Of a stretch of DNA of 64,000 nucleotides, positions 6,849 to 8,980 are shown in pieces (the stretch's first letter is position 1; each line of letters begins with the position of its first letter). The position numbers were made by a program, and so were the translations under genes. This DNA comes from Alphaproteobacteria bacterium (GTDB taxonomy: Bacteria; Pseudomonadota; Alphaproteobacteria; UBA6615). Under the pieces are notes generated by a model, which was not told where the DNA came from, searched no databases, and saw nothing but the letters and a program-made list of their open reading frames with translations. The stretch covers positions 1 to 64,000 of the forward strand of contig SHVS01000006.1 of assembly GCA_009694135.1 (NCBI GenBank), written 5' to 3'.

Positions 6849-7898
6849 TCAGCGGTGATCGGCGCCGACCGCCTCCGCGAGGGTGGCAAAACCGTCGCGT
6901 TCCAGCATCGTGGCCAGCTCGCGCTTGATGCGCCCGATCAGTCCCGGACCGGCATAGACCAGGGCGCTGTACAGCTCGACCAGCGAGGCGCCGGCGCGCA
7001 GCTTGGCATAGGCATCCAAAGCCGATGCCACGCCGCCGACACCGATGATCGGCACGCGGTTCTGGCACAGGCGATAGACCTCGCGCAGGGTCGCGGTCGA
7101 GCGGGCCAGGAGCGGCCGGCCGGACAGCCCGCCGGCCTGCGCGCCGTGGCGGCTCATAAGGTCCGACGGGCGGGCGCGGGTGGTGTTGGTGGCGACGAAG
7201 CCGTCCACGCCGCCCTCCAGCGCGGTTTCGACCAGCCTGGCCAGCCGTTCCGGTTCGAGATCGGGCGACAGCTTGACCAGGAGCGGGATCGCCGTGCGCT
7301 TGCGCGCCGGCACCGCGGTCAGTCGCGCGAGAAGCCGCGCCAGCGCCTTTGGCTCGAGGAACTGCTGCCCGTCGCGCGTGTTGGGGCAGGAAATATCGAC
7401 CGTCAGGAAATCGGCGATCGGCGCGAAACGCGCGACCAGCTGGGCGAAATCCTCGACCGGATCGGTGCTGTCGGTGTTGCTGGCCAGGTTGACTCCCAGC
7501 GGCCGGTCGCGCCGCCTGCGCGCGGTGACCCGTGCCGCGACTGGGTCCGCGCCGTCGCTGTTGAGCCCCAGGCGATTGATGATCGCGCGGTCCTCGCTAA
7601 GGCGGAACAAGCGCGGGCGCGGATTGCCCGCTTGCGGACGCGGCGTCACCCCGCCGATTTCGGCGAAGCCGACGCCGAGCGCGAGCGCGCCGTCGATCGC
7701 CAGCCCATTCTTGTCGAAACCGGCGGCGAGCCCGATCGGATTGGCGAACACCCGGTCCCACAAATGCGCCGCGAGGATCGGCGGATCGGGCGTCGCGTCG
7801 CGCCGCACCAGCCCGCGCGCGAGCGCCAAAAGGGCGATGCGATGCGCCGTCTCCGGGTCGAGCGCGTGCAGCAGCCGGGTGCCGAGGGCGGCGAACAT
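6849..7898 (-). CDS. pyrD: Dihydroorotate dehydrogenase (quinone-type layout)
   Basis: Oxidises dihydroorotate to orotate in pyrimidine synthesis, using FMN and passing electrons to quinone at the membrane. It is 349 aa. Class 2 features are the N-terminal helical region (ALGTRLLHALDPETAHR), GLAAGFDKNG (about residue 65), TPRPQAGNPRPRLFRL (about 88), INRLGLNSDG and the final IGVGGVASALDAYAKLRAG and LVELYSALVYAGP FMN-phosphate region. Odd point: the active-site segment reads VDISCPNTRDGQQF, with Cys where class 2 enzymes have the catalytic Ser (ISSPNTPGL in E. coli); Cys at that place is the rule in class 1. The start lies 8 bases downstream of the oxygenase gene stop, so the two are probably one operon. 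Confidence 0.93.
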   Translation of the reverse strand: MFAALGTRLLHALDPETAHRIALLALARGLVRRDATPDPPILAAHLWDRVFANPIGLAAGFDKNGLAIDGALALGVGFAEIGGVTPRPQAGNPRPRLFRLSEDRAIINRLGLNSDGADPVAARVTARRRRDRPLGVNLASNTDSTDPVEDFAQLVARFAPIADFLTVDISCPNTRDGQQFLEPKALARLLARLTAVPARKRTAIPLLVKLSPDLEPERLARLVETALEGGVDGFVATNTTRARPSDLMSRHGAQAGGLSGRPLLARSTATLREVYRLCQNRVPIIGVGGVASALDAYAKLRAGASLVELYSALVYAGPGLIGRIKRELATMLERDGFATLAEAVGADHR

Positions 7899-7906
7899 GC
7901 TGCGAA

Positions 7907-8980
7907 CTACGAGCCGGCGTCGCGCTGCGCGCGCTGGCTCGCGAGGCGCGCGGCAATCTTGGCGACGCCAACGGAATCGTACAGGAAATTGAACAAGCCG
8001 AAACGGCGCCCCGCGGTCACGTCGAGCGCCTCGTGCAACAGCGAGCAAGAAAAAATCACCGCTCCGCCGGCGGGTGGACGATAGCACATTCGGCCGAATT
8101 CCGGGAAGACCAGCTCGCCGCCCGCGAAGTCCTGGTTGAGGTTGATCGACATGGCGAAAACGCGGTGGTCGGTGTTGGGCGTCGTGTTGTCGCGATGGCG
8201 GCGGAAGAAGCCTTTCTCTGCCGGGTAGCAGCCGACGCGAAAGGCCTCGAACTCCGTCGGCTCCCAATTGAAGGCGCGACGCATGGCGGGCCGCACGCAC
8301 CAGGCCATGGCCCGCCTGAGTTCGGCGAGCAAAGCCTCATCCTTGAGCAGCACATCTTCCCGCTGCTTGATGCCGGTGTCGTAGGCGGCGCGATCGCCAC
8401 CACGCGACACCTGGGCGGACAATTTCTCGCCCGCCTCCCAATAAGCCATCAAGCGTTCGCATAGCGCGGGCGCAATGGCTTGCGGCAGGACAAGAACCGG
8501 CGCTTGCGCGGCGATGATGTGCGGCGTGGTTTGCGCGTGCAACTGCCGGCACAGGGATTCGACCGCCGCCGGGCTTGCCGCCTCGCCGACCAGGCGTGCG
8601 GCGAAACGTCCGGCCGGATCGATGATCGCCGCGCCGGCACCGTCGATGCCGAAGGCGGGGCGGGCGACATTCTGGGTATCGATCAGCCCGGTGAGCGGTG
8701 CCGGTGGCGATGCAAACGCGCTCGTGGTCACCGCAAACATCCGTCCGCCGATCGATCGCAAGGCTTCGGCCGCCGCGACCCAGGGAGCAAGCTCCGCGTT
8801 CGGCTGAGGAAAAAGGAGCACGACCAACCCGCCGGCAATGGACTGATGCGTCAGCGTAATGCTCTCGCCGCCCGTATCAGGGAGGATCAAGCGCGGAACG
8901 AAATCGCCGGGTTCGAGCGGCGTCGGCAGCGCACTGGGCCGACCCGACCCGCGCGGCGCGGCAACAATGGGATCGGACAT
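7907..8980 (-). CDS. Peroxiredoxin-like domain fused to a 2-oxoglutarate/Fe(II) oxygenase
   Basis: A 357 aa two-domain protein. Residues about 20-155 look like a thioredoxin-fold AhpC/TSA domain (LEPGDFVPRLILPDTGG, then GGLVVLLFPQPNAELAPWV), but the place of the peroxidatic cysteine is empty. Residues about 165-350 are a prolyl-4-hydroxylase-type oxygenase. It has the iron ligands His and Asp in FFRRHRDNT and His in SLLHEALDV, plus the 2-oxoglutarate-binding Arg in AGRRFGLFNF. The substrate is not known. The start at 8980 is preceded by GAAGGTG; a longer in-frame reading to 9076 is less likely. Directly upstream of pyrD and divergent from rnhB. Confidence 0.82.
   Translation of the reverse strand: MSDPIVAAPRGSGRPSALPTPLEPGDFVPRLILPDTGGESITLTHQSIAGGLVVLLFPQPNAELAPWVAAAEALRSIGGRMFAVTTSAFASPPAPLTGLIDTQNVARPAFGIDGAGAAIIDPAGRFAARLVGEAASPAAVESLCRQLHAQTTPHIIAAQAPVLVLPQAIAPALCERLMAYWEAGEKLSAQVSRGGDRAAYDTGIKQREDVLLKDEALLAELRRAMAWCVRPAMRRAFNWEPTEFEAFRVGCYPAEKGFFRRHRDNTTPNTDHRVFAMSINLNQDFAGGELVFPEFGRMCYRPPAGGAVIFSCSLLHEALDVTAGRRFGLFNFLYDSVGVAKIAARLASQRAQRDAGS

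Follow-up and report, generated by a model that had tools for sequence, protein, structure and literature searches.

A peroxiredoxin-descended domain without its peroxidatic motif, fused to a prolyl-hydroxylase-type oxygenase in Alphaproteobacteria

What does a peroxiredoxin fold do when it has no peroxidatic motif and stands in front of an oxygenase? The question is raised by one gene in the window analysed here, a stretch of 64,000 nucleotides from an alphaproteobacterium of the UBA6615 lineage (contig SHVS01000006.1, C29 in our numbering of a 1.6 Mb genome that is 79% complete). The gene lies at 7907-8980 on the minus strand, as the earlier note had placed it, with its ATG at 8980 and its stop codon at 7909-7907, and it encodes 357 amino acids. 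An AlphaFold2 model of the whole chain, computed from an 80-row alignment, has a mean pLDDT of 91.7 and a pTM of 0.87. As modelled, the protein is a two-domain one: a peroxiredoxin-fold part (residues ~20-150; 8531-8923, minus strand) is followed by a prolyl-hydroxylase-type double-stranded beta helix (residues ~158-335; 7976-8509, minus strand), and the chain ends in a predicted C-terminal helix (residues 336-356; 7913-7975, minus strand).

The N-terminal domain is invisible in the lone sequence: Pfam, NCBIfam and PDB sequence searches with the single 357-residue protein do not detect it, and neither AhpC-TSA nor Redoxin is matched in Pfam up to an E-value of 10. It emerges from the relatives. 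At an E-value of 0.01, 36 of 80 family members match AhpC-TSA and 13 match Redoxin (73 match PF13640, the oxygenase family), and a paralogue in the same genome (contig C2, 38% identical) clears the AhpC-TSA cut-off with 40 bits against 26. A profile of the family finds the peroxiredoxin 5epf in the PDB with an E-value of 3e-13 over profile positions 5-148. When a profile of the N domain, from which the sequence at locus L054 was left out, was run against 149 ORFs from seven AhpC-TSA loci (the paralogue's included), it retrieved a BCP of the same genome (E 1.3e-21) and a second AhpC-TSA protein (E 4.5e-6); the remaining four of the seven loci gave no match at 0.01. Structural alignment of the modelled domain with BCP-type and 2-Cys peroxiredoxins yields Z-scores of 16.3-17.6, the highest with BCP 9a4d (Z 17.6, rmsd 1.7 over 129 residues), which is an integrative model, followed by the crystal structures 2a4v (yeast nuclear thiol peroxidase; Z 17.3) and 5enu (Z 17.0). 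On these grounds – family profiles, Pfam matches of relatives, AlphaFold2 and structural alignment – the N domain descends from a peroxiredoxin. Domain searches and structure prediction, the checks that the earlier note had proposed, have thus found both folds, and the thioredoxin fold that it placed at residues 20-155 is present. Fold and ancestry are common to this domain and the PrxQ/BCP peroxiredoxins, which differ from it in that the domain here is devoid of the peroxidatic motif and is joined to an oxygenase.

How far does the fusion extend? Searched with the single protein, 24 of 40 genomes (its own included) gave a match at an E-value of 0.001, 19 of them below 1e-40, and some of the rest were weak matches to the oxygenase only. 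The same single-protein query found no match in a collection of genome contigs; an alignment-based scan of that collection returned at least 592 stretches and at least 581 relatives. The 80 loci studied are the best 80 of these at least 581 relatives, and because they were ranked against a full-length query the fused form is favoured among them. In 77 of the 80 the family match runs unbroken from the N domain to the end; the three exceptions are L065, which starts at a contig end, L054, where the match is in two pieces, and L089, which is without most of the N domain. The last, from Phenylobacterium sp. J426, is an open frame in which that part was lost, frameshifted or mis-assembled. The genera include Thalassospira, Reyranella, Caulobacter, Phenylobacterium, Brevundimonas, Siccirubricoccus and Falsiroseomonas, with others of the class, and a few of these best 80 of at least 581 come from records titled Micromonosporaceae and relatives, Gemmatimonadota, Latescibacterota, Planctomycetota, KSB1 and Cyanobacteria. 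At L081, L090 and L101 (Phenylobacterium and a further alphaproteobacterial record) the fusion gene stands in tandem pairs, and additional partial copies lie at L088 and L101.

The 80-row profile (A2) matches below 1e-60 in 42 of 192 genomes of the class by hand count, all at least 90% complete except for the genome of the window, which is counted. A clear gap separates these matches from the next, from 1e-60 to 1e-19, and those beneath it cover one half of the protein only. Thirteen of the 42 genomes have two or more strong places, and a single genome reaches six, of which one, at a contig end, is partial. Of 199 genomes drawn across the phylum, again by hand count, 8 have a match below 1e-60, all from the same class, as against none of the 136 genomes of other classes. 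Two copies lie on plasmids, in Rhizobium and Niveispirillum; their annotation, '2OG-Fe(II) oxygenase', does not name the N domain. In the literature covered, mostly the non-subscription part, we found no description of a peroxiredoxin-like/oxygenase fusion, and an earlier mention is possible.

Residue conservation was read from 113 distinct sequences: the window protein, the relatives at L004-L021 and L027-L032, the members at the 80 loci and 17 more from the class and phylum draws, 123 in all before ten duplicates were removed. Left out were L022-L026 (weak matches), places for which no locus was fetched, L065, L089 and the partial pieces at L088 and L101; L054 is included, and L009 and L109 are the same gene, entered twice with different starts.

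The peroxidatic cysteine of peroxiredoxins sits in the motif PxxxT/SxxC. With a BCP of the same genome as a ruler in the alignment (further on in the domain, where the column of the conserved active-site arginine of peroxiredoxins would be read, this reference is misaligned), the motif occurs in the N domain of 0 of the 113 sequences, and CxxC likewise in 0 of 113. A cysteine occupies the peroxidatic column in five members (L010 and L011 of one genus, L068, L092 and L135), all of them without the Thr/Ser of the motif; the window protein, in which the peroxidatic loop is shortened, is not one of them. The description 'cysteine-less' given by the earlier note therefore holds for the peroxidatic cysteine, missing in the window protein as in 108 of the 113, and is too strong if taken literally since Cys144, in the last helix, falls within residues 20-155. 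It is the sole cysteine of this N domain, the others of the protein being at 174, 228, 251, 299 and 312, and 31 of the 113 N domains have no cysteine at all. By eye on the drawn tree we read the five exceptions as four separate places, and cannot tell whether they are leftovers or chance. The tree was built quickly, its end branches are long and SH-aLRT is its sole measure of support, and we do not rely on its deep order; L054 was left out of it, and its change count for the cysteine compared seven labelled rows.

Could the N domain, by way of another cysteine or by a route without thiols, still sense peroxide or the redox state and tune the oxygenase? The four places with a cysteine at the peroxidatic column would fit such a role, as would two residues of the catalytic half, C312 (8045-8047, minus strand), which is invariant in 113 of 113 and stands four residues ahead of the distal histidine, and the nearly invariant C174 (108 of 113). 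The uniform absence of both motifs and the 31 N domains devoid of cysteine speak against it, and we regard redox sensing as very improbable.

The catalytic half is the part of the protein that sequence searches do recognize. PF13640 is its only Pfam match (43.1 bits against a cut-off of 27), NCBIfam gives a weak match to PKHD-type Fe2+ dioxygenases, and the score against PRK05467, the YbiX/PiuC PKHD equivalog, is 27.2 bits, below the curated cut-off of 143. A PF13640 search of the window's own genome missed this very gene despite its 43 bits by hmmscan, so absence in that search is no proof of absence. In the PDB the protein alone matches a 2OG oxygenase and PiuC-like chains with E-values of 0.003-0.011, and the family profile reaches PiuC at 5.8e-7. 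For a profile of the C domain the best sequence match is PiuC/YbiX (9ghl, 3dkq; E 1.5e-9); the Bacillus prolyl 4-hydroxylase (P4H) 5hv0 follows at 1.9e-4, and PHD2 is missing from the 19 matches listed up to an E-value of 1. Structural alignment puts prolyl hydroxylases on top, although their sequence match to the C domain is weak: Z is 19.0 for the algal P4H (3gze), 18.9 for the Pseudomonas putida P4H bound to EF-Tu (4iw3), 18.2 for PiuC and 17.7 for PHD2, several of the P4H alignments beginning at model residues 17-26 in ranges that give the first and last aligned residue only. The likeness to the EF-Tu prolyl hydroxylase is thus one of structure only.

All elements of the P4H/PKHD active site, the HxD...H metal triad and the distal arginine, are present. 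H262 and D264 (motif HRD; 8189-8197, minus strand) are each conserved in 113 of 113 sequences, H316 (8033-8035, minus strand) in 112, where the lone exception may be a misalignment, and R326 (8003-8005, minus strand), ten residues past H316, in 113 of 113. We take it from the superfamily that the two histidines and the aspartate bind Fe(II) and that R326 binds 2-oxoglutarate. With PF13640, the model, the structural alignments and the retained ligands in agreement, the presence of a C-terminal prolyl-hydroxylase-type oxygenase is confirmed. PiuC and YbiX belong to the same superfamily and also carry an arginine ten residues after the distal histidine; the matched chains differ in being 225-243 residues long and in having no match to the N domain. 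In a human collagen P4H, according to the portion of PMC9676403 available to us, a conserved cysteine that shares a strand with the distal histidine, three residues past it, is disulfide-bonded to a cysteine of an N-terminal extension.

What the oxygenase acts on is suggested differently by sequence and by structure. A small molecule, such as a free amino acid, a siderophore-type compound or another metabolite, would suit the sequence neighbours, since PiuC/YbiX-type hydroxylases are the nearest and PiuC is called an iron uptake factor in its PDB title; one of the plasmid copies also lies within a stretch of sigma factor, FecR and TonB-receptor genes. By structure, however, the nearest enzymes are mostly protein or peptide prolyl hydroxylases, and no conserved biosynthetic neighbours were seen among the largest neighbour groups listed at the 80 loci, which leaves a small-molecule substrate fairly unlikely in our estimation.

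We lean instead, and hold it somewhat probable, towards an Fe(II)- and 2-oxoglutarate-dependent protein hydroxylase of the prolyl-4-hydroxylase/PKHD superfamily in which the inert peroxiredoxin-like domain serves as a rigid, non-redox scaffold. Iron would be held by H262, D264 and H316 and 2-oxoglutarate by R326, and O2 would serve to hydroxylate a protein or peptide residue, most likely a proline. Peroxidase chemistry may have disappeared from the PrxQ/BCP-like ancestor of the N domain before the family spread or early in that spread, and the domain would now pack rigidly on the catalytic domain, stabilising it and/or presenting the substrate. It is the high pTM that suggests such a fixed packing of the two domains. 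R125 (8606-8608), in a DPxxR stretch of the N domain and an arginine in 101 of 113 sequences, is a candidate contact with the catalytic domain. Computation itself establishes the two folds, the missing peroxidase motif, the kept oxygenase ligands, the retained fusion and an N-domain dN/dS below 1.

The last of these comes from 16 pairs, in all of which dN/dS, by a simple counting method without an error estimate, is below 1 in both domains (0.08-0.45 in the N domain, 0.02-0.20 in the C domain), with the higher value in the N domain in 14 of them. In pairwise comparison the N domains are on average 24% identical, the C domains 49%. The N domain is thus kept and yet drifts faster, which fits a scaffold or recognition module, as it might a loose spacer. 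The reading of the protein as a thioredoxin-fold domain without a peroxidase motif fused to a prolyl-hydroxylase-type oxygenase is borne out, and a dN/dS below 1 in both halves fits a binding or scaffold role for the first domain, of which docking, as the earlier note had suggested, is a possible form; that note was right on the anatomy and reasonable on the role.

Peroxiredoxins often associate through their fold. The N domain might accordingly do no more than stabilise or dimerise the protein and have no say in the choice of substrate, a reading that we consider possible, if on the unlikely side: the high pTM of the whole chain, the retention of the domain in 77 of 80 loci and its fast drift are all as it would have them, but the same data do not set it apart from docking. 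Present evidence does not tell docking, stabilisation and dimerisation apart.

By analogy only, the nearest functional parallel to the proposed scaffold is collagen prolyl 4-hydroxylase with protein disulfide isomerase (PDI). There, as the available part of PMC9676403 describes, a P4H catalytic domain likewise has a thioredoxin-fold partner, the PDI subunit, which is required for a soluble and competent catalytic subunit. PDI is, however, a separate subunit that keeps its CGHC motif and forms disulfides with the catalytic domain (PMC9676403, same part), whereas the partner here is fused, of the peroxiredoxin type and without CxxC.

The gene for dihydroorotate dehydrogenase, pyrD (349 residues; 6849-7898, minus strand), which we place outside the system, starts 8 bases past the stop codon of the fusion gene, and given this spacing the two probably form one transcript. 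Upstream lie rnhB, in the opposite direction, and then a RAMA-domain N6/N4 DNA methyltransferase; a search ahead of the fusion gene, on its strand, brought up no promoter-like site. Across the 80 related loci, with flanks that reach 8 kb at most and less where a contig ends, and an E-value of 1e-8, pyrD, rnhB and the methyltransferase are each found at none, while the family gene itself, as a positive control, is recovered at all 80. The position next to pyrD to which the earlier note had drawn attention is real; as it is not conserved, it carries little weight, and pyrD was rejected as a functional partner and is incidental. The search for co-conserved partners that the same note had called for found no partner gene conserved across genera among the largest groups listed at the 80 loci. 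Recurrent groups are common mainly within genera or close groups, such as the constant upstream genes in Thalassospira, and the neighbour gene lists are rough, the simple caller having preferred ORFs on the wrong strand to pyrD and the fusion gene of the window itself. In the paralogue's group a folC-like gene lies upstream and, in three loci, a trxA-like gene downstream (names by eye). Among the groups listed, one resembling an ABC transporter by eye occurs at 8 loci of different genera, 1 to 7 kb away and on both strands; ABC transporter-type genes are common.

Protein hydroxylation, well known from animals, has been charted far less in bacteria. The family couples an intact prolyl-hydroxylase-type domain to a peroxiredoxin-descended one whose motif is intact in 0 of 113 members; its members are defined enzymes that can be put to the test in the search for hydroxylated proteins of bacteria, and they invite the question of what a redox-dead thioredoxin fold contributes next to an oxygenase. 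A bolder idea, and one that we think improbable, is that these are widespread, undescribed O2-dependent protein hydroxylases of bacteria in which a peroxiredoxin has turned into a substrate-reading module that would recognise thiol-redox proteins or their clients and pass them on to the hydroxylase. Such a module, if real, would make protein modification in Alphaproteobacteria depend on the levels of O2 and 2-oxoglutarate.

Finally, six loci fall on viral contigs. L139, a 5 kb contig that may be bacterial, has the full fusion, four others have weak partial matches, and L140, on a 32 kb viral contig (~2980-3609, plus strand), encodes the catalytic domain of the family without the peroxiredoxin part, near ORFs that by eye resemble a T7-type RNA polymerase and a primase. 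Because L140 has the catalytic domain alone, the N domain may be dispensable for catalysis.
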